64,000 nucleotides of DNA from positions 62,001 through 126,000 of the forward strand of contig JACBFI010000006.1 of assembly GCA_013391385.1 (NCBI GenBank), written 5' to 3'. The notes under the pieces are model-generated. The model was not told where the DNA came from. It saw only the letters and a list, made by a program, of their open reading frames with translations, and made no database searches. This DNA comes from Sediminibacterium sp. Gen4. Its GTDB lineage: Bacteria > Bacteroidota > Bacteroidia > Chitinophagales > Chitinophagaceae. The position numbers and the translations under genes were made by a program. This document shows positions 3,916 to 42,436 of this stretch, piece by piece (position 1 is the first letter of the stretch; every line of letters starts with the position of its first letter).

Positions 3916-3953
3916 AGCTTATGGTTCATGGCTTATGGTCAATGGTCTACAGC
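3916..3953 (+). repeat. Single-arm copy of the CTTATGGTTCATGG word repeat
   Basis: After the kinase stop codon the DNA reads as short repeated words (GCTTATGGTTCATGGC, TTATGGTCAATGG). The same words in rearranged order, and inverted, make up the repeats at 8093-8128, 23231-23370 and 42311-42436. Here no matching second arm was found, so it is a solo or decayed copy. Confidence 0.6.
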
Positions 3954-3959
3954 AAAAGA

Positions 3960-3993
3960 AAGAGGCTGTATCAAACTTTTGACACAGCCTCTT
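3960..3993. terminator. Bidirectional terminator between the kinase and rplY
   Basis: Arms of 16 bases, 3960-3975 and 3978-3993 (AAGAGGCTGTATCAAA against TTTGACACAGCCTCTT), pair with one mismatch and are followed by ATTTT. It lies between two convergent genes and can stop transcription from both sides. Confidence 0.75.
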
Positions 3994-4014
3994 ATTTTCA
4001 TAAGTATGTTCAAC

Positions 4015-4605
4015 TTATTTTTTCTTCTCTTCTTTTGCAGCAGTTGCTTCTTCTTGTTTCAGCTGACGAGTCATTACTACTGAAGCAATTGGAATACGTG
4101 GAGAGTTCAAAATCTCCATATTATCTGCTTTTACATCTTCTACGCGGACGTTACCGTTCAGTTCAAGATTGGTAATGTCTACTGAAATGTTTTCTTTCAG
4201 ATCTTTAGGGAAAGCTTTTACTTTCAATGCTTTCATTTTTGTAACCAGCTTACCACCTTCTTTCACACCCACAGAAGTACCTGTAAATTTGAGTGGCAGT
4301 GTAGCGACTACTTTTTTGTCATCCACCAACTCTAATAAATCAACATGGATCAGTGAGTCTTCTACTTTATCAAACTGAAGATCTTTCAGAATGCATTTGT
4401 AAGTTTTACCATCCACTTTAACCTCGGCCAGCTGAAATTCACTTGTGTAAACCAAAGGCTTGAAAGCCTTTGCAGGAGCAAAGAAATTGATCTCCTGTGC
4501 ACCCCCGTAAATTACACCTGGCACGTTTTCCTGAGAGCGAATCTGGCGGGCGGCTTTTTTGCCATGTTCGGTCCTCAGTTGTCCTTCGATTGTAATTGTT
4601 TTCAT
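4015..4605 (-). CDS. rplY: 50S ribosomal protein L25 (general stress protein Ctc type)
   Basis: A 196-residue L25 of the long CTC type, which binds 5S rRNA in the large ribosomal subunit. The N-terminal L25 domain reads MKTITIEGQLRTEHGKKAARQ with the conserved VPGVIYGG. The C-terminal TL5/CTC beta domain follows (LPLKFTGTSVGVKEGG, ISVDITNLELN). The open frame reaches 4626, but the start at 4605 gives the normal N-terminus. A TACTTTTG -7 element lies upstream (4624-4631, minus strand). The C-terminus is a lysine/alanine-rich tail, common in this family. prs lies upstream on the same strand across a long inverted repeat. Confidence 0.95.
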   Translation of the reverse strand: MKTITIEGQLRTEHGKKAARQIRSQENVPGVIYGGAQEINFFAPAKAFKPLVYTSEFQLAEVKVDGKTYKCILKDLQFDKVEDSLIHVDLLELVDDKKVVATLPLKFTGTSVGVKEGGKLVTKMKALKVKAFPKDLKENISVDITNLELNGNVRVEDVKADNMEILNSPRIPIASVVMTRQLKQEEATAAKEEKKK

Positions 4606-4623
4606 ATTTAAAATTTTGGACGG

Positions 4624-4631
4624 CAAAAGTA
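4624..4631 (-). promoter_or_regulatory. Bacteroidota -7 element of rplY (TACTTTTG)
   Basis: TACTTTTG on the minus strand matches TAnnTTTG and lies 18 bases upstream of the rplY ATG. No clear -33 TTG is seen at the expected distance. It suggests that rplY has its own promoter after the prs-rplY inverted repeat. Confidence 0.45.
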
Positions 4632-4650
4632 GGGAAAATCTGACGATTTT

Positions 4651-4797
4651 AAGCTACCAGCTTCGAGCCACGAGCTACGAGCCTAAAATAAAATTTAAAA
4701 TTCATTACAAAATATTGATAATCAATAATTTGTAATGAATTTTAAATAATATGAAAACTAAAAGCTAGCGGCTCGTAGCTCGTAGCTCAAAGCTCCT
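4651..4797. repeat. Long two-level inverted repeat, GAGCTACGAGC word family
   Basis: The outer left arm (4651-4683: AAGCTACCAGCTTCGAGCCA and then CGAGCTACGAGCC) pairs with the outer right arm (about 4770-4797: GGCTCGTAGCTCGTAGCTC and then AAAGCTCC). Inside these, ATTTAAAATTCATTACAAA pairs with TTTGTAATGAATTTTAAAT around a short TATTGATAATCAATA core that is itself palindromic. The whole prs-rplY gap is thus one hairpin. The right arm starts directly at the prs stop codon (4796-4798). It could terminate or attenuate the prs transcript before rplY. Confidence 0.8.
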
Positions 4798-5749
4798 ACC
4801 CTCTTCCCTTCAATTGAGAATGAATAAAAAGGCTGGTGATGCTTTTATTTTCATATGCATTGCGGATGGCAATGGCGAAAAGGTCGGCTACGGAAATTAC
4901 TTTGATCTTGGGAGAATCCTTTTTTAAAGGGATGGTATCACATACGACTAACTCCTCCAATACACTATCCTCAATATTTTCGTAGGCTTTACCGCTTAGT
5001 ACCGGGTGAGTAATGAGTGCTCGTACACTTCTGGCACCCTTTTCTTTTAATAATCCTGCAGCCTTAGCAAGGGTACCCCCTGTATCACAGATATCATCTA
5101 CCAATACAATATCACGATCTGTTACATCACCAATCACAACCATGCTGGCAATTTCATTGGCACGTTTACGATGCTTATCACAAATCACCATTTCTGCATT
5201 GAAGTAACTAGCAATCTCTCTTACACGGTTGGTACTTCCTACATCCGGAGCTGCGAATGTCAGGTTTTGCAATTTCAGTTGCTCGATATAAGGAATGAAA
5301 ATGGCTGAACTATCTAAATGATCCACCGGTACATCAAAAAACGCCTGAATTTGAGCGGCGTGGAGATCCATGGTTATCACCCTGTCCGCTCCGGCTGCTT
5401 CCAATAGAGTTGCTATAAGTTTGGAGCCAATTGCGACCCTGGGTTTATCCTTTCGGTCTTGGCGGGCAAAACCATAATAAGGTATTACCGCAATGATTTT
5501 ATAAGCACTGGCACGTTTGGCAGCATCGATCATCAGGAGTAATTCCATCAGGTTATCGGTGGGTGCATAAGTGCTTTGAACAAGGAAAACATAATCGCCG
5601 CGAATACTTTCCAGAAAGATGGGCTGAAATTCACCGTCACTGAATTTCTGAATATTGATTTTTCCGATGGGGGCGCCGAAACGCTGTGCTATTTTTTCTG
5701 CCAGCACTTGAGATCCTGTACCGGAGAAAATCTTGACAGATGGATTCAT
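4796..5749 (-). CDS. prs: Ribose-phosphate pyrophosphokinase
   Basis: Prs makes PRPP from ribose 5-phosphate and ATP for purine, pyrimidine, histidine, tryptophan and NAD synthesis. The 317-residue protein has the family length. It shows the ATP-binding flexible-loop region (YYGFARQDRKDKPRVAIG), ITMDLHAAQIQAFFDVPVDHL, and the PRPP-binding loop VLVDDICDTGGTLAKAA. The start MNPSVKIFSGTGSQ is the first Met of the conserved N-terminus. The stop codon abuts the right arm of the 4651-4797 inverted repeat. rplY follows on the same strand, a very common pairing. Confidence 0.96.
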   Translation of the reverse strand: MNPSVKIFSGTGSQVLAEKIAQRFGAPIGKINIQKFSDGEFQPIFLESIRGDYVFLVQSTYAPTDNLMELLLMIDAAKRASAYKIIAVIPYYGFARQDRKDKPRVAIGSKLIATLLEAAGADRVITMDLHAAQIQAFFDVPVDHLDSSAIFIPYIEQLKLQNLTFAAPDVGSTNRVREIASYFNAEMVICDKHRKRANEIASMVVIGDVTDRDIVLVDDICDTGGTLAKAAGLLKEKGARSVRALITHPVLSGKAYENIEDSVLEELVVCDTIPLKKDSPKIKVISVADLFAIAIRNAYENKSITSLFIHSQLKGRG

Positions 5750-5822
5750 AATTGCAGGAATGAGCGGCGAAGATAGAGATTAGGTTCACAAATTTTCATT
5801 TGAAATTTTCAATTTTTTTACA

Positions 5823-6512
5823 ATGCAAAAAAATACCATCAAAGATTGGGCTACCGATGACCAACCACGTCAGAAACTGCTTCATAAAGGAGCTGAAAAT
5901 CTCAGTGATTCTGAATTATTAGCCATTCTTATCAACAATGGCATACCCGGAAAATCGGCATTAGAGCTTGCAAAAGACCTGCTGAGTCAGTGTAACCATG
6001 ATCTCAATACCATGGGTAGACTTTCTGTTCAATCGCTTTGCAAGCTGAAGATTAAAGGTTTAGGACCGGCAAAAGCCATTCATATTACCGCCGCACTGGA
6101 ACTGGGTTTGCGCAGACATTTGAGTCATGTTAAGAAAGAAGTGATCAAAAGCAGCAGTGATATTGCTGATTACTTGAGAGCAAAATTGGGTCACAAGCCC
6201 AAAGAAGTATTTGGTGTACTTTTTTTAAACCGCAGCAATAAAGTGATCGCCTTTGAACACATGAGTGAAGGTGGTATCACCGGCACGGTAGTAGATATTC
6301 GAATTATTTTAAAAAAAGCATTGCTGCATGAATCAGTATCCATGGTGATATGTCACAATCATCCCAGTGGCAACTTGGATCCTAGTACAGCAGATGAACT
6401 CATCACCAAAAAAATCAAGGAAGCGAGCTTATTACTCGATATCAGATTATTGGATCATATCATTGTAAGTAATGAAGGACATTACAGCTTTGCAGATCAT
6501 GGTAAACTCTGA
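5823..6512 (+). CDS. radC: RadC-family JAB/MPN domain protein
   Basis: A 229-residue RadC homologue. An N-terminal UPF0758 / helix-hairpin-helix region (GAENLSDSELLAILINNG, then KIKGLGPAKAIHI) is followed by the JAB metalloprotease-like domain, with the zinc-binding HxHx(n)D signature in CHNHPSGNLDPSTAD at about residue 178. The historic name implies DNA repair, but that role is not established, and a metal-dependent peptidase or nucleic-acid role remains open. It is divergent from prs (73 bases) and convergent with the DUF3467 gene, with only 8 bases between the stops. Confidence 0.93.
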   Translation: MQKNTIKDWATDDQPRQKLLHKGAENLSDSELLAILINNGIPGKSALELAKDLLSQCNHDLNTMGRLSVQSLCKLKIKGLGPAKAIHITAALELGLRRHLSHVKKEVIKSSSDIADYLRAKLGHKPKEVFGVLFLNRSNKVIAFEHMSEGGITGTVVDIRIILKKALLHESVSMVICHNHPSGNLDPSTADELITKKIKEASLLLDIRLLDHIIVSNEGHYSFADHGKL

Positions 6513-6520
6513 ACCCTGTA

Positions 6521-7153: not shown

Positions 7154-8035
7154 ATGTTAGTATTAGATGGTAAAATAGCTGCCGCCGCAGTCAAGGAATC
7201 CCTAAAAATCAAAACCGCTCAATTGGCGGCTGAAGGAAAAAGAAAACCACATTTGGCAGCCATTTTAGTGGGTAATAACGGAGCCAGTGAAACCTATGTA
7301 GCCAGTAAAGTAAAAAACTGCGAGGAAACAGGCTTTGCATCTACCCTCATCAGACTAGCAGATACGATTGATGAAGCTTCCTTATTATCAACCATTCACG
7401 AACTCAATAGCAATCCCTCTATTGATGGTATTTTGGTTCAGTTACCATTGCCCAAACAAATCAGTGAGCAAAAAGTGATTGAAGCGATTGATCCTTTAAA
7501 AGATGTAGATGGTTTTCATCCCATCAATGTCGGTAAGTTGGTTCAGGGACTTTCTACATTCATACCAGCCACTCCTTACGGTATCATGTTGATGCTGGAA
7601 CATTATAAAATTGAAACAAAAGGAAAACATGCAATCGTAATCGGCAGAAGCAATATTGTGGGCAGACCCATGAGTATTCTTTTAAGCAGTAATCTCAAAC
7701 AAGGTAATTGCACCGTTACGATTTGTCATTCGCATACCCCGAATTTGAAAGAACTTTGTCTGCAAGCTGATATCATTGTTGCAGCTTTAGGCAGACCCGG
7801 ATTTGTTACTGCAGATATGGTAAAACCCGGTGCAGTGATTATTGATGTAGGCATCACCCGTGTAGACGACAGTACCGCCAAAAAAGGATTTCGGATCAAA
7901 GGAGATGTTGCTTATGAAGAAGTAGCTACCAAGGCATCAGCTATTACCCCGGTTCCGGGAGGAGTAGGATTGATGACCATTGCAGGGTTGTTGAAAAATA
8001 CGATGCAGGCTTACGAGCAGAGGGCTGATAGCTAA
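7154..8035 (+). CDS. folD: Methylenetetrahydrofolate dehydrogenase / cyclohydrolase
   Basis: FolD converts 5,10-methylene-THF to 10-formyl-THF using NADP in two steps, supplying one-carbon units for purines and formyl-Met. The 293-residue protein has the full family set: the YVASKVKNCEETGF segment with the catalytic Tyr and Lys near residue 50, DGILVQLPLPKQI, PATPYGIMLMLEHY, the nucleotide-binding VIGRSNIVGRPMSILL, and ITPVPGGVGLMTIAGLLKNT. The last residues (RADS) and the stop codon are encoded by the start of the word repeat that fills the gap to queE (GCTGATAGCTAATAGGG). The natural C-terminus may therefore have been remodelled by that repeat. Confidence 0.97.
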   Translation: MLVLDGKIAAAAVKESLKIKTAQLAAEGKRKPHLAAILVGNNGASETYVASKVKNCEETGFASTLIRLADTIDEASLLSTIHELNSNPSIDGILVQLPLPKQISEQKVIEAIDPLKDVDGFHPINVGKLVQGLSTFIPATPYGIMLMLEHYKIETKGKHAIVIGRSNIVGRPMSILLSSNLKQGNCTVTICHSHTPNLKELCLQADIIVAALGRPGFVTADMVKPGAVIIDVGITRVDDSTAKKGFRIKGDVAYEEVATKASAITPVPGGVGLMTIAGLLKNTMQAYEQRADS

Positions 8036-8128
8036 TAGGGAATAGCTTATAGAAAAAGAAATATCTCATATGCAGCAATCAATTGTTCACAACTATAAGC
8101 TATATGCCATGAACCATAAGCCATAAGC
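8024..8128. repeat. Inverted repeat, CTATAAGCCATGA word family, copy 1
   Basis: The left arm (8024-8052) begins inside the folD coding sequence and overlaps its stop. The right arm (8093-8128) ends 2 bases before the queE ATG. AATAGCTTATAG (8041-8052) pairs with CTATAAGCTATA (8093-8104) with one mismatch. The right arm then continues with TGCCATGAACCATAAGCCAT, the inverse of the words at 3916-3953. Apart from two bases, the folD-queE gap consists of this element. Confidence 0.75.
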
Positions 8129-8130
8129 AA

Positions 8131-11514: not shown

Positions 11515-12618
11515 ATGATGACAGAAGAAAGTATTTATCAATTATCACTCACCCGAATACCGGATATCGGCAGTATTCTCACCAAACAGCTGATCGACTA
11601 TTTCGGATCTGCCTCTGCTGTTTTCAAAGCCAGAAAAAAAGAATTGGCTGCGGTAGAAGGAATTGGAGAAGTAAGAGCTACGCAGATCAAGAAATTTTCA
11701 GATCATGATTCCTCTGAACAAGAACTGAAGAAGATAGAGCAACATCAGCTTACCCTACTTTTCATCACTGATGAACAATATCCGCAACGATTAAAGAACT
11801 GTTCTGATCCCCCATTGGTCCTTTTTTTCAAAGGAAATAAATCTTTGAACCCTTCCAGAATCATCAGTGTAATTGGTAGTAGGAATGCAACCGACTATGG
11901 CAGAACGGTTACTGAGCAATTGATCAAAGCATTACAACCCTATGATGTGATGATTGTAAGCGGATTGGCACATGGTATTGATGCCATTGCACATCGATCG
12001 GCATTACAGCAACAATTACCTACCATTGGTGTGATGGCGCATGGATTCAAAACGATATATCCGCACGTACATCGATCACTAGCAAGGGAAATGATCGATC
12101 AAGGTGGGCTACTCACAGAATTTTGGTGGGATGCATTACCCGACAAACATCATTTCCCACAACGTAACAGAATTGTTGCCGGTATTTCGGATGCAACTGT
12201 TGTCATAGAAACTGCAGTGAAAGGTGGAAGTATGATCACGGCAGATCTGGCTTTTGAATATAACCGTGATGTTTTTGCAGTACCTGGACGTATTTATGAT
12301 CAACGTAGCAGTGGCTGCCTACAATTGATCGCTCAAAACAAAGCCACGGCTTTTACTAGCCCTGAACAAATCATCAACGCATTGGGTTGGTTAGAACCCA
12401 AAAAGAAAAAAAATCTACAAAAAAAATTATTCCCTGAACTTTCATCAGAAGAACAAATCATCGTATCAATACTCACTGAACATCATCAAATACATGTAGA
12501 TGAGCTCTACCTCAAAACTCAACTCCCCAGCTCAGCCATGGCCTCAGCCATACTCAATCTTGAATTACAGAATATCATTATTCAGTTGCCGGGGAAGAGG
12601 TACGAATTGAGCGTATAG
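11515..12618 (+). CDS. dprA: DNA-processing protein DprA
   Basis: DprA loads RecA onto incoming single-stranded DNA during natural transformation. The 367-residue protein has an N-terminal helix-hairpin-helix/SAM-like region (LTRIPDIGSILTKQLIDYFG, AVEGIGEVRATQI), the Rossmann-fold core (ISVIGSRNATDYGR, IVSGLAHGIDAIAHR, LLTEFWWD, FPQRNRIVAGISDATVVIE) and a C-terminal winged-helix-like region. The stop codon lies in the left arm of the next word repeat (GCGTATAGCATATAGG). No other competence genes are near. Confidence 0.95.
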   Translation: MMTEESIYQLSLTRIPDIGSILTKQLIDYFGSASAVFKARKKELAAVEGIGEVRATQIKKFSDHDSSEQELKKIEQHQLTLLFITDEQYPQRLKNCSDPPLVLFFKGNKSLNPSRIISVIGSRNATDYGRTVTEQLIKALQPYDVMIVSGLAHGIDAIAHRSALQQQLPTIGVMAHGFKTIYPHVHRSLAREMIDQGGLLTEFWWDALPDKHHFPQRNRIVAGISDATVVIETAVKGGSMITADLAFEYNRDVFAVPGRIYDQRSSGCLQLIAQNKATAFTSPEQIINALGWLEPKKKKNLQKKLFPELSSEEQIIVSILTEHHQIHVDELYLKTQLPSSAMASAILNLELQNIIIQLPGKRYELSV

Positions 12619-12721
12619 CATATAGGTTATGGCATATAGTAAGAAGGCACCATGAACTATATGCTATGAGCTATACGCTATTAACTATATGCCATAACCT
12701 ATAAGCCATTTCCTATCAGCT
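12611..12721. repeat. Inverted repeat, CTATAAGCCATGA word family, copy 2
   Basis: The left part (12611-12640) starts inside the last codons of dprA. TATAGGTTATGGCATATAGT at 12621-12640 pairs perfectly over 20 bases with 12684-12703. Additional permuted words (ATGCTATGAGCTATACGC, AAGCCATTTCCTATCAGC) extend the right side to 12721. The element fills nearly all of the dprA-guaB gap except the guaB promoter. Confidence 0.8.
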
Positions 12722-20562: not shown

Positions 20563-23223
20563 ATGAAAAAAGCGATACTGACTATATTGTTATTGGGTTT
20601 TCTGGCCACGACTTATGCGGGGCATATTGCAGGTGGGGAAATATATTATGCTTACCTAGGAACAGGGGGTTCTCCCAATACTGCAAGGTATCAGATTACA
20701 CTACGCCTTTTTAGAGATTGTAATGCTAGTGGAAGTAATGTGGCACAATTACCGATCTCAGTTCAAATTGGTATTTATAACAATACATTACCTTCTACAA
20801 GATTTGGCAACCTAGTTACTGTTGCAAGGTCAGGTAATATCGAAGAATTAAAATTAGGCAGTCCTGACCCTTGTATTACCGGGAATGTCTCTGTTTGTTA
20901 TCAACTGGCTAATTACACGTTTACTACAGAATTACCTATCAGTTCCGCTGGTTACATCGTTATGTACCAAACTTGTTGTAGGACTGATGCCATCACAAAT
21001 ATTGTAAAACAACAAGTAACCCCTAACTCTGTAGGTGAAGGCGCGACTTATTCCTGTACTATTCCGGGTACCAATAATTTAGGGTCTGGAACCAATTCAA
21101 GCCCCGTTTTTGGTTTAAAAGACACTACACTGGTTTGTCAGAACTCGCCCTTCAAAATTGATTTTAGCGCTACTGATCCGGATCAGGGTGATTCTCTATC
21201 TTATAGTTTGTGTGCTGCTTATGACAGAGGCAATACTACTAATGCAAACGACAACAACTATTCTAATCCGCCTTTTGGTTTTGTAGCATATAACAGTGGA
21301 TTTTCAGGATCCAATCCATTAGGACCTAACGCAACCATAGATCCTGTTACAGGTATCATTTCCGGTATTGCTCCAGTAAACGGATATTATGTAGTGAATG
21401 TTTGTATTACTGAATGGCGAAACGGAGTCGCTATTTCTGAACATCGTAAAGATTTTACATTACGGGTATCAGATTGTTCACTAACTGGCGCTAGTCTGAA
21501 ACCTAATTATATTACCTGTAACGGATTCACTATGAATTTTCAGAATGAATCTAGCAACTCAAATATTACAGGTTATCTGTGGGATTTTGGAGAAAATACA
21601 ACCAACTCAAATTCTTCTGCGCCCACCCCTACTCACACATATTCAGATACCGGAACTTATGTGTTGAAATTAACAGTTACCAGTTCAGGAGGGTGTAAAG
21701 ATTCCGCAACTGCGCAGGTAAGGGTATATCCCGGCTTTGTTCCCGATTTCAATGTACAAGGCACTTGCTATCTCAATAATTTTAATTTTACTGACGCTAC
21801 CACAACAGCTTATGGTGTAGTGAATAGCTGGAGATGGGATCTCGGTGATCTTACAACTTCAGCCGATACATCCAGAAGAAAAGATACCGCTTGGAAATAT
21901 GCGACTCCACAAACGGTTCAGGTAAAATTGGTGACCAGTAATAGTAAAGGCTGTATTGATTCCATCACAAAACCCGTTATCATACGTGATAAACCTCTCG
22001 TCAATCTTGCATTTCGCGATACATTGATATGCAGTATTGATACCCTTACTTTACGAAGCACCATTGGAAACGGAACAGTTTCATGGACTACAGACAGACC
22101 CGCAAGTCTGGCCCGCATGTTGAATATCAATACACCCAACCCCATCGTATATCCGGTTGATACTACTCGATATTTTATTACGATCAATGACAATGGTTGT
22201 ACCAATACAGACACCGTCACGGTAAACGTACTGGATTTTATAGATGTTGAACTCGGAATGGACACGAGTATATGTCGCACCGATCAATTCACCCTAAGTC
22301 CGGTTAGTGATGCACTTAGTTATCAATGGACTACATCTACCGGAGTGGTTATTCCCGGTAATACAAAATATCCTCTGGTACAACCATTGGTGAATACCAT
22401 GTATTATGTGACTGCCAATTTGGGTTATTGTCAAGATAGAGACTCTGTATTTGTGAGAGTAGCTCCTTATCCGCAAGTAACAGTACGCAATGATACCACC
22501 ATTTGTTTTGGCGATCGCGTACAATTGGGAGGAGCTATAGTAGGTGCCGCTTTTAATTGGTCGCCATCTTCATCTTTGATCAACGGCAATACATTGTTTC
22601 CAATTGCGGGTCCATCCAAAACCACACAATATATTCTTACAGCGATTGATACATTAGGTTGTGATAAACCTGTTCGAGATACCGTAACCATATTTGTCAC
22701 CCAACCGCTTACTGCTTATGCAGGTAAAGATACTTTTGTGGTTGCAGGAAGACCGGTGCAGCTACTCGCAGAAGGTGGGAATAGTTATCTATGGACTCCC
22801 ACTACAGGATTGGATGATCCTTACAGTGCTTCTCCAACCGTAACACTGCCTGAAACCATCGATTCTATTCGTTATATCGTTCGTGCCATTGGTGCCGGAG
22901 GTTGTTATGCTGAAGATGATGTGATTGTTCGTGTCTTTAAAACAGGCCCCGATCTTTTTGTACCCTCTGCCTTTACACCAAACGGAGACGGGAAAAATGA
23001 TGTGATACGACCCGTAGGTGTAGGTATCGCTACATTGCAATACTTCAGAATTTATAACCGCTGGGGACAATTGGTATTCTCTACCAGTCAAACAGGAAAA
23101 GGCTGGGATGGTATCTTTAACGGCACACCTCAACCACCCGGGACTTATGTATTTGAAGCCGTGGGCACCGATCAATTGGGTAATCGGGTGTATAAGAAGG
23201 GAACGATTGTGTTGATTAGGTGA
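20563..23223 (+). CDS. Secreted PKD-repeat protein with T9SS type B sorting domain (paralogue 2)
   Basis: An 886-residue tandem paralogue of the preceding gene with the same domain order. The signal peptide is MKKAILTILLLGFLATTYA, followed by GHIAGGEIYYAYLG and the N-terminal domain with CRTDAITN. PKD-like domains follow (YLWDFG near 336, WRWDLG near 422), then Ig-like modules (TICFGDRVQLGG). The type B C-terminal signal starts at about 796 (PSAFTPNGDGKNDVIRP, YFRIYNRWGQLVFSTSQ, GWDGIFNG, VYKKGTIVLIR). The close similarity along the whole length indicates duplication. The stop codon is followed immediately by a word repeat (TGATAGTTTGTGGCGCATGG). Confidence 0.92.
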   Translation: MKKAILTILLLGFLATTYAGHIAGGEIYYAYLGTGGSPNTARYQITLRLFRDCNASGSNVAQLPISVQIGIYNNTLPSTRFGNLVTVARSGNIEELKLGSPDPCITGNVSVCYQLANYTFTTELPISSAGYIVMYQTCCRTDAITNIVKQQVTPNSVGEGATYSCTIPGTNNLGSGTNSSPVFGLKDTTLVCQNSPFKIDFSATDPDQGDSLSYSLCAAYDRGNTTNANDNNYSNPPFGFVAYNSGFSGSNPLGPNATIDPVTGIISGIAPVNGYYVVNVCITEWRNGVAISEHRKDFTLRVSDCSLTGASLKPNYITCNGFTMNFQNESSNSNITGYLWDFGENTTNSNSSAPTPTHTYSDTGTYVLKLTVTSSGGCKDSATAQVRVYPGFVPDFNVQGTCYLNNFNFTDATTTAYGVVNSWRWDLGDLTTSADTSRRKDTAWKYATPQTVQVKLVTSNSKGCIDSITKPVIIRDKPLVNLAFRDTLICSIDTLTLRSTIGNGTVSWTTDRPASLARMLNINTPNPIVYPVDTTRYFITINDNGCTNTDTVTVNVLDFIDVELGMDTSICRTDQFTLSPVSDALSYQWTTSTGVVIPGNTKYPLVQPLVNTMYYVTANLGYCQDRDSVFVRVAPYPQVTVRNDTTICFGDRVQLGGAIVGAAFNWSPSSSLINGNTLFPIAGPSKTTQYILTAIDTLGCDKPVRDTVTIFVTQPLTAYAGKDTFVVAGRPVQLLAEGGNSYLWTPTTGLDDPYSASPTVTLPETIDSIRYIVRAIGAGGCYAEDDVIVRVFKTGPDLFVPSAFTPNGDGKNDVIRPVGVGIATLQYFRIYNRWGQLVFSTSQTGKGWDGIFNGTPQPPGTYVFEAVGTDQLGNRVYKKGTIVLIR

Positions 23224-23376
23224 TAGTTTGTGGCGCATGGCAAATGGATCATGGTAAATGGATTATCGCGAATAGCTAATAGGTCATAGCGTATGGCAAA
23301 AATCAATCAGTATGTTCTGCGATAAGCTATTCGCCGTAAACCATTTGCTATAAACCATGACCTATTAGCTGTCTGC
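23224..23376. repeat. Inverted repeat, CTATAAGCCATGA word family, copy 3
   Basis: AGCTAATAGGTCAT (23274-23287) pairs perfectly with ATGACCTATTAGCT (23357-23370), and GCGAATAGCT (23268-23277) pairs with AGCTATTCGC (23325-23334). The words CAAATGGATCATGGTAAATGG and ACCATTTGCTATAAACC also correspond, but in shuffled order, so no single simple hairpin accounts for all of it. The element begins at the stop of the second T9SS cargo gene. Confidence 0.75.
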
Positions 23377-23381
23377 TACCT

Positions 23382-24160: not shown

Positions 24161-24260
24161 ATCCGTCTAGGCGGATGCAATTTGAAAATTTGAAGATGAG
24201 GCAATTTGAAAATGAAATACTCGCTTTCCTCATTTTCAAATTTTCAAATTTTCAAATTTT
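24161..24260. repeat. TCCG hairpin plus AATTTGAAAATTTG inverted repeat, copy 1
   Basis: A near-perfect 16-base palindrome (ATCCGTCTAGGCGGAT, 24161-24176) sits next to AATTTG and is followed by an inverted repeat. The left arm is 24179-24215 (AATTTGAAAATTTGAAGATG and on) and the right arm 24227-24260 (TCCTCATTTTCAAATTTTCA and on). The right arm continues into the last codons of the minus-strand gene ending at 24236. It may serve as a terminator between two convergent genes. Confidence 0.75.
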
Positions 24261-25171
24261 GACCTACACTCCATCATTATTTCCTCAACCACCGCTGCTG
24301 CAGGTTTAATTTCATGGATGAGTGCACTTACTTGTCCAATCTCTAATTCACCTTCTTCCATATCACCTTCAAACATTCCTTTTTTCGCCCTCGCTCTTCC
24401 TAAGATTTGTTTCAGTTCCTCTTCTGAAGCGCCGCGCAATTCAGCCGCTTTGATTTCTTCTGCGAATTTATTTTTTAAGAGTCGAACAGGTACTACTTTT
24501 TTCATCGCTAACTGTGTATCACCTTCACCCGCATTAATAATTGCTTCTTTAAAAGCTAAGTGAGATGAAGCTTCCGGTGTACATACAAACCTACTTCCTA
24601 CTTGAACACCATCAGCTCCCAATACCATTGCGGCGAGCATTTGTGTGCCGGTAGCAATTCCTCCTGCCGCTATTACCGGAATATTAACAGCTGCACGTAC
24701 GGCAGGTATCAAAACCATGGTTGTTGTTTCTTCTCGACCGTTATGTCCGCCTGCTTCAAATCCTTCTGCCACAACAGCATCACAACCTGCTTCCTCGGCT
24801 TTCTTAGCAAACTTACTGCTACTCACTACATGCGCTACCTTGATCCCGTGATCTTTCAAAAAGCCGGTCCATGTTTTAGGATTTCCCGCACTGGTAAAAA
24901 CTATTGGCACTTTTTCTTCTACAATAATATTCATCAACTGATCAATATCAGGATACAACAAAGGCACATTCACTCCAAAGGGTTGATCTGTTGCTGCTTT
25001 ACATTTTCGGATATGCTCGCGCAATACATCCGGATACATACTCCCCGCACCCAATAAACCCAGTCCACCCGCATTACTCACCGCACTCGCCAACCTCCAT
25101 CCACTCGCCCATATCATACCGGCTTGGATTAATGGATAGTGGATTCCGAATAGAAAAGTGATTCTGTTCAT
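24236..25171 (-). CDS. Nitronate monooxygenase / FabK-like FMN protein
   Basis: A 311-residue TIM-barrel flavoprotein of the NMO/FabK superfamily. Recognisable blocks are HYPLIQAGMIWASGWRLASAVSNAGGLG, QPFGVNVPLLYP, VVAEGFEAGGHNGRE with the conserved AEG-x-E-A-GGH motif, and FMN phosphate binding in IAAGGIATGTQMLAAMVLGADGVQVGSRF. It could be a nitronate monooxygenase or an enoyl-ACP reductase; the sequence alone does not decide. The last residues (SKFENLKI) are encoded by the AATTTGAAAATTTG word repeat, and the ATG lies 2 bases from another copy of that repeat on the 5' side. Repeats thus bound the gene on both sides. Confidence 0.9.
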   Translation of the reverse strand: MNRITFLFGIHYPLIQAGMIWASGWRLASAVSNAGGLGLLGAGSMYPDVLREHIRKCKAATDQPFGVNVPLLYPDIDQLMNIIVEEKVPIVFTSAGNPKTWTGFLKDHGIKVAHVVSSSKFAKKAEEAGCDAVVAEGFEAGGHNGREETTTMVLIPAVRAAVNIPVIAAGGIATGTQMLAAMVLGADGVQVGSRFVCTPEASSHLAFKEAIINAGEGDTQLAMKKVVPVRLLKNKFAEEIKAAELRGASEEELKQILGRARAKKGMFEGDMEEGELEIGQVSALIHEIKPAAAVVEEIMMECRSKFENLKI

Positions 25172-25172: not shown

Positions 25173-25313
25173 AATTTGAAAATAAAGCAATTTGAAAATT
25201 TGAAAATAAGAGGTTATTCGACTTTTATAATCTAAAAATAACCATTTTATTACGAGCTTAAAATTATGAGATTACGATATTTTCAAATTTTCAAATTATT
25301 GAATTTTCAAATT
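25173..25313. repeat. Inverted repeat, AATTTGAAAATTTG family, copy 2
   Basis: The left arm (25173-25208) and right arm (25278-25313), 36 bases each, are inverted copies that match except at about five adjacent positions. They enclose an AT-rich core of about 70 bases. The element fills the whole gap between the two minus-strand genes. The right arm overlaps the stop of the nucleotidyltransferase, and the left arm stands 1 base from the ATG of the downstream gene. Confidence 0.85.
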
Positions 25314-26304
25314 ATCCAAAATCTATCTCCGTATTATCCCCAATATTCAAACTCCTGCTCAAACCTTTTACAGATGCATCACTGCCGATGAGTGAATTGT
25401 CGAGGACTACTTCATAGAGACTGGTGTAAGATCCGATGATACTATCTCTTACGATGGAATGTTTTATAGTGGTGTTGGCTCCAATGGCTACGTGTGGACC
25501 AATGATGGAGTTAGCGATATCGCAACCCGGCGCAATACTGACTGGAGGAATGATGATGGTGTCTTTGAAATCGTGTCCGTCTACAATATTACCTCCAAAC
25601 TTTTTCAGCAGTGTAGCATTGCTTTCCAATAAAGTTTCTTTCTTACCACAATCGAACCAGTTCTTTACTTTGAATGATTGAAATTTTGCACCACGTTTGA
25701 TCATACAATCCAATGCATCTGTTAGATTATATTCTCCATAGGTTTTAATATCCTGCGTAAAGAGATGATGCAAACATTCAAAAAGAAAATGCGTTTCCTT
25801 GATTTTGTATAAACCTACCAGTGCCATATTGCTTTTAGGAATGGCTGGCTTTTCTACAACTTGTTCAATAAAACCATCATCACCTATAGAAGCTACTCCA
25901 AAATTTCTGGGGTCATCTACTTTTTTGATACCCAACATACTGTAAGGACTATTCACCACCTCCTTTACATCATACTCACAAATGGTATCGCCAAGTGCAA
26001 CAAACACTTCATCCTGACCTACAATATTTCTGGTCAATTCAATAGCATGTCCTGTACCCTGACGTTCATTTTGAAAAACAAAATGAGCAGTCATATCAGG
26101 ATAGGTCTGCTTTACATAATCTTGAATTTTTTCACCCAGGTAACCTACAATAAAAATGAATTCATTGATACCGGCTTCTCTGAGTTGATCAACGATATAA
26201 CTGAGAATGGTTTTTCCTGCAATAGGAATCAAGGCCTTGGGTTGTGTATAAGTATGCGGTCTGAGTTTGGTACCTGCACCCGCTACTGGTATGATTGCTT
26301 TCAT
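25312..26304 (-). CDS. Sugar-phosphate nucleotidyltransferase
   Basis: A 330-residue NTP-transferase that activates a sugar 1-phosphate with dTTP, UTP or GTP. It shows MKAIIPVAGAGTKLRPHTYTQPKALIPIAGK (GxGxRLxPxTxxxPK-like with a Lys in place of the usual Arg), the magnesium aspartate in FVALGDTICEYD, VEKPAIPKSNMALVGLY, and GEYNLTDALDCMIKRG. A left-handed beta-helix-like C-terminus follows (IANSIIGPHVAIGANTTIKHSIV). The nucleotide and sugar cannot be fixed. It is a cytoplasmic supplier for polysaccharide or cell-envelope synthesis. No other glycan genes are adjacent. Confidence 0.9.
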   Translation of the reverse strand: MKAIIPVAGAGTKLRPHTYTQPKALIPIAGKTILSYIVDQLREAGINEFIFIVGYLGEKIQDYVKQTYPDMTAHFVFQNERQGTGHAIELTRNIVGQDEVFVALGDTICEYDVKEVVNSPYSMLGIKKVDDPRNFGVASIGDDGFIEQVVEKPAIPKSNMALVGLYKIKETHFLFECLHHLFTQDIKTYGEYNLTDALDCMIKRGAKFQSFKVKNWFDCGKKETLLESNATLLKKFGGNIVDGHDFKDTIIIPPVSIAPGCDIANSIIGPHVAIGANTTIKHSIVRDSIIGSYTSLYEVVLDNSLIGSDASVKGLSRSLNIGDNTEIDFG

Positions 26305-26430: not shown

Positions 26431-26554
26431 GCCGCAAGCTACATGCTTCAAGCTGCAAGTATATCTTGATGGAAAGTGTCTACATGTAAAATCAAGCAAA
26501 ATTTAATATTAATAAATACTTGAAGCTTGTGGCTTGCAGCTTGTAGCTTGTACC
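26431..26554. repeat. Inverted repeat, CAAGCTTGAAGC word family
   Basis: The left arm (26431-26462: GCCGCAAGCTACATGCTTCA and on to AAGTAT) is inverted relative to the right arm (26516-26554: ATACTTGAAGCTTGTGGCTT and on). About 55 AT-rich bases lie between. Unlike most other copies it lies between two divergent genes, so it cannot be only a terminator. Its right arm supplies the TTG of the glyA -33 box. Confidence 0.8.
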
Positions 26555-26577
26555 ATGCCCCTCTTGGCTTATATTTG
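26548..26577 (+). promoter_or_regulatory. glyA promoter (TTG-N19-TATATTTG)
   Basis: TTG at 26548-26550 and TATATTTG at 26570-26577 are spaced by 19 bases, a full match to the Bacteroidota consensus. The start codon is 16 bases further on. The -33 half lies in the right arm of the inverted repeat. Confidence 0.65.
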
Positions 26578-37955: not shown

Positions 37956-37963
37956 CAAATGTA
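37956..37963 (-). promoter_or_regulatory. Bacteroidota -7 element (TACATTTG)
   Basis: TACATTTG on the minus strand matches TAnnTTTG, 23 bases upstream of the ATG at 37932. No -33 TTG was found. The remaining part of the 236-base gap to kup contains no recognisable structure. Confidence 0.4.
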
Positions 37964-38168
37964 AGATATATGGCTAATACATGGTAAGTATCGTCTGAAT
38001 CTATTCAATGTATCCCTTTTTTACATGGAAACAGCCGACTAGTTCAATAGTTGCCTGATAGGAGGTGAAATAAATCTTAATTTCTTCTAAAGAATACTCT
38101 TTATCGTTACTTGAAATTTCCTATACATTTGTTAAAGATTCAGGCACAAATGCCGGACTCTACTTGGA

Positions 38169-40157
38169 GTGAGTAAGAATTTAAACAAGGTTACCTCTGC
38201 AGGACTCATCATTGCACTAGGTATCATCTACGGCGACATCGGTACTTCCCCCCTTTATGTACTGAATGAAATTGTTCATGGACGTGTTATTAGTGAACAT
38301 TTAATATTAGGTTCTTTATCCTGTATTATTTGGACACTCACACTGCAAACCACTATCAAGTATGTGATTCTAACCCTAAAGGCAGATAATAAGGGTGAGG
38401 GTGGTATTTTTGGATTATATGCACTCGTCAGACGAAGACGCAAATGGTTAGTAGTACCAGCCATGATTGGCGGTGCAGCTATTCTTTCTGAGGGAATCAT
38501 TACACCACCCATATCCATTACTTCAGCTATTGAAGGATTGAGACAGCTTCCCGCATTTAGTCATATACAGACTACTACCATAATGGGTATTGTTATAGGA
38601 ATCATTACCCTGCTATTTGTAATGCAGCAATTTGGGACGGCTTCTATTGGTAAACTATTTGGCCCGATCATGCTGGTATGGTTCAGTATGCTTGCCATAT
38701 TGGGTGGACTACACCTCTTTGATGATATTTCCATTTTCAAGGCATTCAATCCCTATTATGCGTATGACCTATTAACGCGCTATCCAAAAGGCTTCTGGCT
38801 ACTGGGTGCTGTATTTCTTTGTACTACCGGTGCGGAAGCTTTGTACAGCGACCTTGGACATTGCGGAAAAGGGAATATTCGTATATCATGGATTTTTGTA
38901 AAAACCTGTCTTATTATCAATTATCTAGGTCAGGGTGCTTGGCTATTGGCGAATTATGAGGGTGGCCCTATTCCTGCAGAGTTGATCACATCTGGTTTTA
39001 ACCCTTTTATTGGCATTATGCCCCAGTGGTTTAAACTCGGAGGAATTACTATTGCTACAATTGCAGCCATCATTGCAAGTCAGGCCTTGATTTCCGGATC
39101 TTTTACACTAATCAGTGAAGCATTGCGATTGAATTTATGGCCAAAGATGAAGATCAATTATCCTACTGAAGAAAAAGGACAATTGTATATCCCAGGCATT
39201 AGCTTGTTACTATACATTGGTTGTATAGGTATTGTCCTTTACTTTCAGAAATCAGCAAATATGGTGGCAGCATACGGACTCGCTATCACGATTTGCATGA
39301 TGAGTACATCCATGCTTTTTGCGAACTTCCTAGTAAGCAGAAGAGTAAAACCTATTTGGATCTATTTATACCTATTAGTCTACCTAACTATTGAAATTTC
39401 TTTTTTGGTAGCCAATCTGGAAAAATTCATGCATGGAGGTTATGTCACACTCGTATTAGGGGGTGGATTATTTTCTGTAATGTATGTGTGGTTCCGAAGT
39501 AGAAAAATCAAAAATAGATATGTTGAATTTGTGCGGATGGAGCATTATATTCCTATGATTCAGGAACTAAGTAATGATAAGACCATCCCGAAATACGCTA
39601 CCCACTTGGTGTACATGACAAGTGCGAATAACCCCAAAGAGATTGAGCACAAGATCATGTATTCTATTCTGAATAAGAAACCTAAAAGGGCAGATATCTA
39701 CTGGTTTGTTCACGTTGATGTACTTGATGATCCATACACTTGTGAATTTTCAGTGGAACATATCATCCCTAATGACATTATTCGTGTAGAATTTCGACTC
39801 GGATTTAGAGTTGAACAACGTATTAATCTTATGTTCAGAAAAGTGGTAGAGGAATTGGTAAACAATAAGGAAGTAAATATCACTAGTAGATATGAAAGTC
39901 TTGAGAAAAATAATGTAGTAGGCGATTTTCAATTCATCGTATTGGAAAAATATTTAAGCCAAGACAATGAATTGCCATTCTTTGAGCGTGTCGTTATGAA
40001 ATTGTATTTCTGGCTGAAAGAGATTAGTTTGGGTGAAGAACGTGGTTTTGGACTTGACCCGAGTAATGTTACCATAGAAAAATTCCCACTCATTGTAGCG
40101 CCGGTTTCTAAACTGAACCTGAAGCGAGTATATTATGAAGGAAGCGATTTCGAATGA
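38169..40157 (+). CDS. kup: KUP-family potassium transporter
   Basis: A 662-residue K+ uptake permease (proton-coupled) of the inner membrane. It begins at GTG, giving MSKNLNKVTSAGLIIALGIIYGDIGTSPLYVLNE with the family GDIGTSPLY motif. About twelve transmembrane segments occupy residues 10-450 (GAVFLCTTGAEALYSDLGHCG is conserved), and the C-terminal cytoplasmic domain fills the rest. No upstream in-frame ATG exists in a suitable place. The stop overlaps the rhodanese start by four bases (ATGA), so the two are translationally coupled. Confidence 0.95.
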   Translation: MSKNLNKVTSAGLIIALGIIYGDIGTSPLYVLNEIVHGRVISEHLILGSLSCIIWTLTLQTTIKYVILTLKADNKGEGGIFGLYALVRRRRKWLVVPAMIGGAAILSEGIITPPISITSAIEGLRQLPAFSHIQTTTIMGIVIGIITLLFVMQQFGTASIGKLFGPIMLVWFSMLAILGGLHLFDDISIFKAFNPYYAYDLLTRYPKGFWLLGAVFLCTTGAEALYSDLGHCGKGNIRISWIFVKTCLIINYLGQGAWLLANYEGGPIPAELITSGFNPFIGIMPQWFKLGGITIATIAAIIASQALISGSFTLISEALRLNLWPKMKINYPTEEKGQLYIPGISLLLYIGCIGIVLYFQKSANMVAAYGLAITICMMSTSMLFANFLVSRRVKPIWIYLYLLVYLTIEISFLVANLEKFMHGGYVTLVLGGGLFSVMYVWFRSRKIKNRYVEFVRMEHYIPMIQELSNDKTIPKYATHLVYMTSANNPKEIEHKIMYSILNKKPKRADIYWFVHVDVLDDPYTCEFSVEHIIPNDIIRVEFRLGFRVEQRINLMFRKVVEELVNNKEVNITSRYESLEKNNVVGDFQFIVLEKYLSQDNELPFFERVVMKLYFWLKEISLGEERGFGLDPSNVTIEKFPLIVAPVSKLNLKRVYYEGSDFE

Positions 40158-40453
40158 AACATATTTCTCCAGAAGAACTCAAACAAAGAATTGTAGATGG
40201 TCAGTTATTTCTTTTGGATGTAAGAGAACCAACTGAACATCAGGAATTCAATATTGGCGGTACTTTGATACCACTTGGGGAGTTGATGCTCCATGCTAAC
40301 GAAATACCCTCAGACCAACCCGTAGTTGTGTATTGTAAAAAAGGAATCAGAAGTCAAATTGCTATTCAGAAGCTTGAAGAAAAACTAGGATTCACCAATC
40401 TAATAAATCTAAAAGGCGGTATAGACGCCTGGAGGAGAATCTTTGATCTATGA
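40154..40453 (+). CDS. Single-domain rhodanese-like protein
   Basis: A 99-residue cytoplasmic sulfurtransferase-type domain with the active cysteine at residue 61 (VVVYCKKGIRSQIAIQKL), the LLDVREPTEHQEFNIGG start block and LINLKGGIDAW at the end. It resembles GlpE/PspE-like enzymes. Its ATG overlaps the kup stop, and the reason for this pairing is not evident. Confidence 0.9.
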   Translation: MKHISPEELKQRIVDGQLFLLDVREPTEHQEFNIGGTLIPLGELMLHANEIPSDQPVVVYCKKGIRSQIAIQKLEEKLGFTNLINLKGGIDAWRRIFDL

Positions 40454-40545
40454 TTTTTGATTTTTTGATTTTTTGTCCGAAGGACCCCTTCGAGGATTTT
40501 TTACTTTATATTACTTGTTTCTTGTCTCTTAATTCTTGTTTCTTT
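40454..40545. repeat. Composite repeat: GATTTTTTGA words, 21-base TCCG palindrome, CAAGAAACAAGA copy 2
   Basis: Following the rhodanese stop there are GATTTTTGATTTTTTGAT words (40452-40475), then a 21-base GC-rich palindrome (40476-40496, beginning TCCGAAGGACCCCTTCG), then T-rich sequence. The inverse of the 27876-27908 repeat follows (40513-40545, ACTTGTTTCTTGTCTCTTAA and on), ending 3 bases before the stop of the convergent hydrolase. The palindrome reappears inverted at 41472-41492. Confidence 0.8.
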
Positions 40546-40547
40546 TA

Positions 40548-41435
40548 CTAGTACTTGAGTATATCTCTAATAAAATTATGATACTCATGGAAAGAGGGTA
40601 GATTATTGTGTCCGCCTCCTTCAATTCTGATAAGGGTAATCTTATGCGGATTAAAGCGTTGTAGTTTTTCGCTATGACTAATAGGAATCAGCCAATCTTT
40701 GGTACCATGTATGATATAAGTATGGCAATTCACTTTTTGTATCCATTTATCTGTCCGCAAATGAAAGCGAAGTACATACTTGATGGGTAGTATGGGCATA
40801 AAACGCTCGGCTACTTTTTTAAAACTGTAATAAGGTGCATCCAATATCAAATAACGAGGTGTATTGTCTGAGGCAATCTTGGTGGCAAAGCCACTTCCCA
40901 TGCTTCTACCATATACAAGGATATGATGTTGCTGATATTTTTGAGCCAGTTGCTCATATACAAACTGCATGTCTTTCAACATGTCTTTTTCCGTTCTTTT
41001 ACCCGTACTTTTTCCAAAGCCACGATAATCTACCAGTACCACATCATAATCATATCGATAAAAATCTTTAGCATATTTAGCCCAGCCTTTGATACTGCGT
41101 GTATTGCCATGTAGATAAAGAATCAATCCTTTGGGCTCAGGTCTGTAGAAGTGTAACCCATTGATACGAACGCCTGGTGCAGGATCAAAAAAGAGCTCTT
41201 CAAAAGGAATATCATATTCAAACCTGAAATCATGTTTCAATTTCTCAGGCTTGAATATTAGTCTTTCCTGTACCAAATAAGTGAGTACAGAAAGTAGTAC
41301 AACAGCCAGTGCAATATATAACAGCAGTTGACCCAAAGCAGTGTTTTGCTGTAAGTTCCGAAAAAAGAAGGATTTGATCTGTGATTTTTTGATCTTTGAT
41401 TTCTTGATTTGTTTTTTGAAGAGACCAGATAGCAT
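40548..41435 (-). CDS. Membrane-anchored alpha/beta hydrolase (paralogue A)
   Basis: A 295-residue hydrolase of the BEM46/ABHD-like type. A lysine-rich N-terminus (KKQIKKSKIKKSQIKS) is encoded by the GATTTTTTGATC-type word repeat. It precedes one membrane segment (LLLYIALAVVLLSVLTYLV) and the hydrolase domain, with GLILYLHGNTRSIKGWAKYA, VDYRGFGKSTGKRTEKDM, the nucleophile in HILVYGRSMGSGFATK, the acid in YIIHGTKDWLIPISHSE and the histidine in GGGHNNLPSFHEY. There is no later in-frame Met before the membrane segment, so the repeat-derived tail is probably translated. The substrate is unknown. It is divergent from its paralogue B. Confidence 0.9.
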   Translation of the reverse strand: MLSGLFKKQIKKSKIKKSQIKSFFFRNLQQNTALGQLLLYIALAVVLLSVLTYLVQERLIFKPEKLKHDFRFEYDIPFEELFFDPAPGVRINGLHFYRPEPKGLILYLHGNTRSIKGWAKYAKDFYRYDYDVVLVDYRGFGKSTGKRTEKDMLKDMQFVYEQLAQKYQQHHILVYGRSMGSGFATKIASDNTPRYLILDAPYYSFKKVAERFMPILPIKYVLRFHLRTDKWIQKVNCHTYIIHGTKDWLIPISHSEKLQRFNPHKITLIRIEGGGHNNLPSFHEYHNFIRDILKY

Positions 41436-41505
41436 TTATTATTGACCTTTATCAAATCGCAGATCAAAGAATCCCCGAAGGGGTCCTTCGGACAAAAAAT
41501 CAAAG
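41355..41505. repeat. GATTTTTTGATC word repeat with 21-base TCCG palindrome, between paralogous hydrolases
   Basis: The words GATCTGTGATTTTTTGATCT and TTTGATTTCTTGATTTG (41378-41412) lie within the first codons of paralogue A. Beyond its ATG, ATCAAATCGCAGATCAAAGA is followed by the 21-base palindrome at 41472-41492, which is the inverse of the one at 40476-40496. ACAAAAAATCAAAG then leads to the ATG of paralogue B at 41506. The two halves are roughly inverted around the divergent start region. Confidence 0.75.
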
Positions 41506-42315
41506 ATGAAAAAGAAAATCCCTCGTTGGCTTAAGATCGTACTCATCGTATATGCCCTGATCGGGATCGCTTTTTATTCTTTTCAAAAGAAAATATTGTT
41601 CCAACCAGTAGTGGTGGCGAGAGATAGTGTGTATCAATTCGAGCAACCCTATGAAGACATTTGGATACCCGTAGATAAGCATAGTGAAACGCATATGGTT
41701 CATTTCACTGTTCCGGATAGTTTACGGAAAGGAGTAGTACTCTATTTCCATGGAAACCGTGGCAATATCAGAAGGTATCGACGTTTTGTAGAAAAGTTCA
41801 CTTCATATGGCTATGCGGTTTGGATGCCCGATTATCCGGGTTTCGGTAAATCAACGGGTAAACTCACAGAACAAGCTATTTATGACCAAGCTTTACAGGT
41901 GTACAAAAGAGCCCGACAATTTTATCAGCCCAATCAAATTATCATCTATGGAAAATCTATGGGTACAGGGGCTGCTACTCAATTGGCTTCCGTAAGGGAT
42001 TGTAAAAGATTGATACTGGAAACACCTTATAACAGTATGCGTTCATTGGTGGGGATGTATTTATGGATGTACCCATTAAAAGCAATTTTAAAATACCAGT
42101 TCCCATCGAATGAATTCATGAAAAAAGTAACAGCACCCATTACCATTTTCCATGGAACTGAAGATGGCGTCATTCCCTACCGCAATGCCGTAAAACTCAA
42201 ATCAGTCCTCAAACCCGGCGATGAATTCGTCACCATCGAAAACGGCGCTCACAGAGATTTGAATACGTTTATTGAGATGAAGAGTAAAATGGATAGTTTG
42301 CTGCGAAGCAGATAG
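41506..42315 (+). CDS. Membrane-anchored alpha/beta hydrolase (paralogue B)
   Basis: A 269-residue paralogue of the preceding gene. It has one N-terminal membrane segment (WLKIVLIVYALIGIAFYSF), then VVLYFHGNRGNIRRYRRF, PDYPGFGKSTGKLTEQA, the nucleophile motif QIIIYGKSMGTGAATQ, the acid in IFHGTEDGVIPYRN and the histidine in ENGAHRDLNTF. It lacks the repeat-derived lysine tail. Its stop codon (TAG) is inside the word repeat GCAGATAGCGGATGGGTTAT. Active site on the periplasmic side is inference. Confidence 0.9.
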   Translation: MKKKIPRWLKIVLIVYALIGIAFYSFQKKILFQPVVVARDSVYQFEQPYEDIWIPVDKHSETHMVHFTVPDSLRKGVVLYFHGNRGNIRRYRRFVEKFTSYGYAVWMPDYPGFGKSTGKLTEQAIYDQALQVYKRARQFYQPNQIIIYGKSMGTGAATQLASVRDCKRLILETPYNSMRSLVGMYLWMYPLKAILKYQFPSNEFMKKVTAPITIFHGTEDGVIPYRNAVKLKSVLKPGDEFVTIENGAHRDLNTFIEMKSKMDSLLRSR

Positions 42316-42436
42316 CGGATGGGTTATGGCTTATAGTTCATGGGAAATAGTAAATAGAAAGAAGCAAATCCTATACTTCTTTCTTAGTTATAAATTAAAT
42401 CAACGACTATAAGCCATGACCTATAAGCTATCAGCC
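42311..42436. repeat. Inverted repeat, CTATAAGCCATGA word family, copy 4
   Basis: The left arm (42311-42358) contains the stop codon of paralogue B. The right arm (42406-42436) contains the stop and last codons of the convergent LD-carboxypeptidase. ATGGCTTATAGT (42326-42337) pairs perfectly with ACTATAAGCCAT (42406-42417). GATAGC words stand at both outer ends in inverted orientation. It may terminate both genes. Confidence 0.8.

Follow-up and report, generated by a model that had tools for sequence, protein, structure and literature searches.

The window analysed here, 64,000 nucleotides of Sediminibacterium sp. Gen4 (assembly GCA_013391385.1, contig JACBFI010000006.1, positions 62,001 to 126,000), contains five intergenic places at which the same short words recur in differing order and orientation, and the locus raises the question of what can be preserved at such places when the sequence itself is not. 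Examination of these and comparable gaps elsewhere in the genome revealed that the words are heptamers arranged in arrays, commonly placed at stop codons, and that the sites of the arrays are almost all retained in a close relative while their text changes, at some sites by exchange for a different heptamer family.

Heptamer arrays and their consensus

All five places listed in a preliminary description, comprising inverted-repeat copies and a solo arm, proved on direct reading to be heptamer arrays in register with the consensus RGYNNAT, and the 20-base pairing reported there between 12621-12640 and 12684-12703 is exact. Within the five regions the chance of finding the same base at a distance of 7, 14 or 21 is 0.38-0.58, as against 0.13-0.34 at the other listed distances up to 27. 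Among 950 units collected from 949 kb, position 1 is R in 94%, position 2 is G in 95%, position 3 is Y in 84%, position 6 is A in 93% and position 7 is T in 90%, with positions 4 and 5 nearly free, although these percentages are descriptive and not proof, since the units were collected using that same consensus. At the four of the five window sites that are paired, the left arm carries RGYNNAT and the right arm its complement, such that RGYNNAT is met first on both strands. Over 89 sites in 789 kb this plus-minus order was found at 37 and the minus-plus order at 3, the remainder being single arms (42) or longer orders (7).

The arrays greatly exceed chance expectation. The Gen4 genome (3.52 Mb in 59 contigs) contains 473 RGYNNAT triple units (228 + 245), compared with 2 (1 + 1) for the reversed pattern. 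A log-odds scan of 789 kb returned 122 arrays of at least 20 bits, against 3 in reversed sequence and none in Markov-1 simulated sequence, densities that may be high since part of the sampled stretches were picked on contigs with RGYNNAT matches, with 11 of 19 later stretches being arbitrary. A period scan that makes no use of words gave 170 segments at period 7 and none in shuffles, followed by 33 at period 14, 17 at period 8 and at most 7 at each remaining period from 3 to 21.

A search with the radical SAM protein encoded beside one of the arrays placed its nearest named records in Chitinophagaceae: a Sphingobacteriales metagenome-assembled genome (L031, G100; a metagenome bin) at 98%, a Chitinophagaceae metagenome-assembled genome (L032, G101) at 92%, and Sediminibacterium goheungense (L033, G102) at 85%. 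The Gen4 triple count is the highest in a set of 247 genomes that includes Gen4 (next are G224 with 137 and G318 with 115, control 77), while relatives hold 407 (G100), 250 (G101), 571 (G102, above Gen4), 246 (G103) and 440 (G113, control 120), and several further Sediminibacterium and related genomes hold 0-3 each. The reversed-pattern control in these multi-genome counts is probably hit by other heptamer families in some genomes, G013 and G113 for example, and may overstate chance in those.

The vocabulary is shared between sites, as judged from in-register strings of three units common to different sites (20, against 6.0 after shuffling within arrays and 0.8 after global shuffling). However, no in-register string of four units is common to different sites anywhere in the 949 kb, an argument against whole elements having been copied recently. 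This absence bears out the preliminary description in its claim of a genome-wide family that keeps vocabulary and symmetry without block conservation, unlike repetitive extragenic palindromic (REP) sequences or miniature inverted-repeat transposable elements (MITEs). Its proposal that word order is shuffled holds as regards the lack of a conserved block, but the shuffling is not free: the words are heptamers that keep register and follow a consensus, the polarity of the arms is fixed, and several families exist. Neither the 7-nt period, the constant polarity nor the stop-codon position had been recognised. Of the words that it singled out, AGCTTATAG (24 occurrences against 6.7 expected), GCCATGAACC (12 against 1.7) and ATAAGCCAT (45 against 14) are over-represented in the 949 kb, whereas GGTCATGGC (5 against 3) is not clearly so. 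DNA uptake sequences, in which one fixed word of 9-12 nt is present in excess, were rejected as an identity for the arrays, the commonest heptamer accounting for only 43 of the 950 units.

RGYNNAT is one family among several. Gen4 also carries GTGAAAR, GTGAGTA, TGTGAAT, AGTTGAC, GTCNGAT and AGCTCRT heptamers, plus an 8-mer, TTTGAAAA, and the non-RGYNNAT heptamer families occupy the same kind of site in Gen4 and its relatives. Elsewhere in the Chitinophagaceae, 80 loci yielded 54 period-7 segments with additional words, where shuffles yielded 1, and a stricter score leaves 48 arrays in 21 of these loci; in the gap between folD and queE the heptamers vary among several species and are missing from others.

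This diversity bears upon the idea that the arrays are docking sites, in the nucleoid or in control of the 3′ untranslated region or of translation, for a DNA- or RNA-binding protein that recognises ATRGY at 7-nt intervals. In its favour are the strong conservation of five positions beside two that are nearly free, over 950 units, and the fact that the part of MacGregor (2015; PMC4679880) used here puts forward Csp, S1 and Csr proteins for the TAACTGA repeats of other bacteria. Nevertheless, sites switch to other words (GTGAAAR, GTGAGTA, AGTTGAC and the 8-mer), and a universal RGY core was rejected, the other families showing it in sense in 5 and in antisense in 4 of 11 cases; recognition by a protein is accordingly regarded as very unlikely to account for the arrays.

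Placement at stop codons

The position of period-7 arrays relative to genes, called by hexamer scoring and uncurated, was examined after excluding 11 segments inside called genes and 18 at stretch edges from a total of 162. Arrays occupy 62 of 291 co-directional gaps and 21 of 71 convergent gaps but only 8 of 104 divergent gaps (gaps of at least 40 bp, n = 466; p = 3.8e-4). An array edge falls within -25 to 15 bp of a stop codon in 73 of 106 cases, compared with 14 of 78 for start codons (p = 6e-12), the median distances being 4 bp and 58.5 bp, respectively. Arrays that touch a stop are in the sense orientation in 53 cases and antisense in 9. The stop is TAG in 30 of the 53 genes touched in this way, as opposed to 131 of 844 genes overall (p = 8e-13), an excess that partly follows from ATAG lying within the consensus. 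Of the stops touched in sense, 21 end at unit phase 2 and 13 at phase 6, and since the stops fall in array register, the arrays often appear to supply the stop codon.

Retention of sites and replacement of text

Aligned gaps between orthologous neighbouring genes of Gen4, G100, G102 and G103 were compared, the mean protein identity to Gen4 being 95.6%, 81.5% and 81.4% for the three relatives, respectively. With both detectors combined, arrays are present in both Gen4 and G100 at 33 gaps, in Gen4 only at 2, in G100 only at 1 and in neither at 92, a count of 128 gaps, since 44 of the 172 pairs have gaps shorter than 15 bp and were omitted. Taken singly, the RGYNNAT detector gives 16, 2, 4 and 150 for the same four classes, and the period 7 or 8 detector 22, 3, 6 and 141. 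Sharing of 9-mers at the 33 retained sites is exactly 0 at 12 and 0.26-1.0 at 21, with nothing between; in other words, at about a third of retained sites the whole text has been swapped for a different heptamer family. With G102 as outgroup, inspection by eye indicated that G100 is the changed lineage at 6 of the 12 replaced sites, the others either differing in all three genomes (3) or having no counterpart in G102 (3). Import of flanking DNA was considered as a cause of replacement; flank identity is similar at replaced and kept sites (0.90 at the 12 and 0.93 at the 21, p = 0.20), which gives no evident role to such import.

Smaller changes are also visible. At array C of the window (left arm 23218-23301, plus strand, 12 units, some decayed, overlapping the stop codon at 23223; right arm 23322-23377, minus strand; pair 64 of the comparison), Gen4 aligns to the reverse complement of G100 across both inner arms and the loop, that is, the interior has been inverted. 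For the loop alone the inverted score is 18 (p = 0.011) and the direct score 10 (p = 0.59), this being one post-hoc test. A scan of 28 Gen4-G100 sites identified 6 with windows that fit better when inverted, pair 64 alone doing so over a long stretch. Among insertions and deletions of at least 4 nt, lengths in multiples of 7 account for 15 of 62 inside arrays and 4 of 43 elsewhere.

As a separate observation, Gen4 C52 18697-18991 and its orthologues in G100 and G102 comprise a conserved stretch with a GTGCCCCGTAGAAACGGGGCAC hairpin adjoining a swapped array, a stretch with the appearance of a small RNA or a structured leader.

Pairing of the arms and a proposed role at gene 3′ ends

Cognate arms pair better than non-cognate arms at the 43 paired sites (17.4 versus 13.0, p = 8e-8), and at 32 of the 43 the fold exceeds that of heptamer-block shuffles in stability by over 2 standard deviations. 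Together with placement and retention, these data suggest that the arrays are hairpins of gene 3′ ends kept for their place and fold, while slippage, inversion and, at times, wholesale replacement renew their text. To this reading we attach even confidence. A hairpin behind the stop codon might be useful as a transcript 3′ end, an exonuclease barrier or a boundary, in which case the site would be kept; because the hairpin would be the useful thing, any text able to fold would serve. The text could then change in three ways: slippage in steps of 7 nt, events in which arms are exchanged or inverted, and, less often, the substitution of an entire array by one from a different family. The role at transcript ends is inferred, and none of the tests directed at it gave support. 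Of the mechanisms suggested in the preliminary description, local copying, template switching or slippage agrees with the visible whole-unit length changes and the one inversion. Selection for structure only is consistent with site retention despite replaced text, but no bias at the RNA level was found.

Several observations weigh against this reading. Retention is lower between Gen4 and G102, where the period 7 or 8 detector places arrays in both at 9 gaps, in Gen4 only at 8, in G102 only at 7 and in neither at 121; this is still above chance (p = 3e-6), and the RGYNNAT detector gives 10, 6, 3 and 126. Multiples of 7 nt make up a minority of array insertions and deletions, and alignment within repeats is ambiguous. 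Slippage alone leaves replacement without intermediate states unexplained. In the 80 loci of other Chitinophagaceae the tie to stop codons is looser, 11 of 41 non-coding arrays lying within 25 bp. Of the 43 right arms, the cognate one ranks first at only 4 sites, since the words are common to many sites, and gaps lacking an array but with an array-bearing orthologue hold more stable hairpins at p = 0.052 only. Nor was an RNA-sense bias found among arm mismatches at 28 sites (37 G-U versus 33 A-C). At 30 paired co-directional sites there is no U-tract, the 10 nt after the 3′ arm containing 3.0 T on average against a background of 3.3, with at least 6 T at 2 of the 30. Finally, ordinary terminators are not significantly rarer in co-directional gaps with paired arrays (3 of 30 versus 45 of 242), or in such gaps with a promoter motif (1 of 10 versus 16 of 64, p = 0.44).

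An intrinsic terminator of the usual form was thus rejected, the T-tract being missing after the hairpin, as was mutual exclusion of arrays and ordinary terminators, the differences not being significant. Given neither a G-U bias nor a T-tract, there is no sign of RNA, rather than DNA, being kept. The same two absences would be expected if the arrays were a neutral by-product, without function, of replication slippage with a preference for 7-nt steps and of strand-switching at hairpins, in unconstrained DNA between a stop codon and the next promoter. Arrays do change faster than other aligned positions, with 10.2% substitutions against 5.9%, the latter figure including gene edges, and according to work cited in the parts of MacGregor (2015; PMC4679880) and Rehm et al. 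(2015; PMC4692102) used here, no long simple repeat is commoner in bacteria than the heptamer, a property linked to polymerase contact length. Set against a neutral origin are the near-complete retention of sites in G100 (33 in both, 3 in one) in the face of whole-text replacement, the sense polarity of arms at stops (53 versus 9), and the excess over shuffles of three-unit strings common between sites, which is unexpected if each site arises alone. On balance the neutral explanation seems rather unlikely, albeit one to be taken seriously.

Candidate makers

Discrete replacement at 12 of the 33 retained sites, which slippage alone does not explain, could feasibly indicate a mobile or trans-made REP-like family, in which an enzyme writes or moves hairpins of the currently active family into gene 3′ ends. 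Indeed, 4 of the 6 sites at which G100 appears to be the changed lineage (by eye, G102 as outgroup) carry AGTCCAT-type words. Moreover, the presence of IS200-like Y1 transposases tracks array-rich genomes: within the genus, strong matches occur in 5 of the 6 genomes rich in arrays but in 5 of the 54 that are poor in them (p = 3e-4), and a second set that includes close kin gives 7 of 8 versus 1 of 10 (p = 0.003). However, the association is weaker when the genus is restricted to genomes of 2.7 Mb or more (5 of 6 versus 4 of 13, p = 0.057, or p = 0.018 counting weak matches), and the Gen4 Y1 protein is of IS200 type (66.6 bits, cut-off 55) as opposed to REP type (REP_Tyr, 28.9 bits, cut-off 80). 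It is encoded by the single Y1_Tnp gene of Gen4, near what are presumably iron-sulphur cluster genes, and the sequence upstream contains, by eye, GC-rich palindromes of CTCCGGACTAAAGTCCGGAG type and not heptamers (L198 1426-1848, 1849-2098). The IS200-like transposase is not, therefore, supported as the maker, given the weaker association among large genomes and the different kind of its own palindromes; neither is a reverse transcriptase, RVT_1 having not been found in Gen4 or G100-G104. Target duplications or MITE-type terminal repeats were not seen by eye at changed sites, no systematic scan having been made. No four-unit string is common to different sites, and on the whole an origin of this sort appears distinctly improbable.

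The arrays were also compared with REP sequences and their assemblies (bacterial interspersed mosaic elements, BIMEs). These palindromes lie between genes and have been suggested to act in transcript termination or in the stabilisation of mRNA; REPs are 20-40 bp in length, align end to end and are tied to a REP-type Y1 transposase. The Gen4 arrays differ in having no colinear conserved palindrome, as the absence of common four-unit strings and the changing text attest, and no REP-type transposase flanked by repeats, the Y1_Tnp protein scoring as IS200 and having other palindromes beside it.

A broader conjecture, which we consider doubtful, is that a process in Bacteroidota writes heptamer hairpins into fixed sites at gene 3′ ends, with the active families being lineage-specific, such that old arrays would be erased and unrelated new ones installed, and position and fold, but not sequence, would be inherited.

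Arrays and other features of the window

Array coordinates within the window were taken from the log-odds scan and neighbouring genes were named by Pfam. In addition to array C, described above, array A comprises a left arm at 8016-8050 (plus strand), overlapping the stop of a folD-type gene (8035), and a right arm at 8095-8129 (minus strand), ahead of the radical SAM gene that we take to be queE. In the left arm of array B (12610-12637, plus strand) the first two units are straddled by the TAG that ends a dprA-type gene (12616-12618); the right arm (12645-12721, minus strand) has 11 units, the last one decayed, and lies ahead of an IMP dehydrogenase gene. Array D is situated between convergent genes, the left arm (42307-42369, plus strand) overlapping the stop of an alpha/beta hydrolase gene (42315), and the right arm (42402-42436, minus strand) overlapping that of an LD-carboxypeptidase gene (42421). 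The solo arm (3916-3957, plus strand; 33.8 bits) consists of four exact units followed by two decayed ones and lies between the end of a histidine kinase gene (3886) and an ordinary terminator, a hairpin directly downstream at 3960-3993 (plus strand, -18.5 kcal/mol, T-rich tail). This terminator type, represented at 3961-3992 and reading AGAGGCTGTNTC...GANACAGCCTCT, recurs as 5 copies in 949 kb by strict pattern, and several terminators of the kind adjoin solo heptamer arms.

Arrays of period 8 with the words TTTGAAAA/TTTTCAAA flank the open reading frame at 24236-25171 (24225-24260, 25189-25207 and 25263-25319), and the same 8-mer family fills the orthologous gaps in G100, G102 and G103. Further period-7 segments, some barely above threshold, occur at 4652-4682, 4754-4809, 26519-26557, 40439-40544 and 46334-46363, with words of AGCTCGT, GCTTGTA, GATTTTT and AGTGAAA types. 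No Rfam family matched the window above its gathering score.

Relation to known heptamer repeats

The short tandemly repeated repetitive (STRR) heptanucleotides of cyanobacteria are likewise tandem heptamers, for which, to our knowledge, hairpin arms and stop-codon placement have not been described. A closer likeness is offered by the GGGAATC and GGGGA(C/T)T heptamers of Xanthomonas and Nostoc, which the portion of Rehm et al. (2015; PMC4692102) drawn upon here describes as degenerate, dispersed and mostly intergenic. In Xcc, 70 convergent pairs are reported among 186 arrays; many arrays of this type occur on the coding strand within 50 bp of a stop, which some of them overlap; arrays between divergent genes are few (7-8%), and positions are kept while text varies (PMC4692102). 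The Gen4 arrays share with them tandem degenerate intergenic heptamers, convergent inverted pairs, the sense position at the stop side and rarity in divergent gaps. They differ in sequence, the GGGAATC word (GGGNATC) being G-rich and quadruplex-capable whereas RGYNNAT contains no G-tracts, and also in having several families per genome, family replacement at retained sites and arrays that apparently supply stops. The preliminary description was right to call the repeats unusual with respect to REP and MITE elements, but an almost identical architecture had thus been published (PMC4692102).

The TAACTGA repeats, as described in the portion of MacGregor (2015; PMC4679880) used here, are intergenic heptamer direct repeats found in species that include five Bacteroidetes. 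Gaps in Gramella, A. sublithincola and Elizabethkingia contain other heptamers besides TAACTGA; in the case of one Gramella set and of those from A. sublithincola, the same gap in close relatives has no obvious repeats (PMC4679880). These repeats are built from one fixed word and in the main species lie mostly just upstream of starts, with one inverted case (PMC4679880). In layout, then, the Gen4 arrays resemble the GGGAATC and TAACTGA kind, and depart from it, so far as those accounts extend, in sequence, number of families and replacement of whole families. Among the matches listed in the open-access literature, none describes these arrays in Chitinophagaceae.

What is new is the occurrence of many heptamer families in one genome together with discrete replacement at retained sites. 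It follows that a non-coding element can be preserved in its location and its symmetry even where two close relatives have entirely different sequence for it, and alignment-based searches would call such replaced elements non-conserved. The little-studied heptamer repeats of Xanthomonas, cyanobacteria and Bacteroidota line up as one architecture, of convergent arms behind stops, and the Gen4 system allows the retention, slippage, inversion and replacement of a 3′-end element to be counted site by site.

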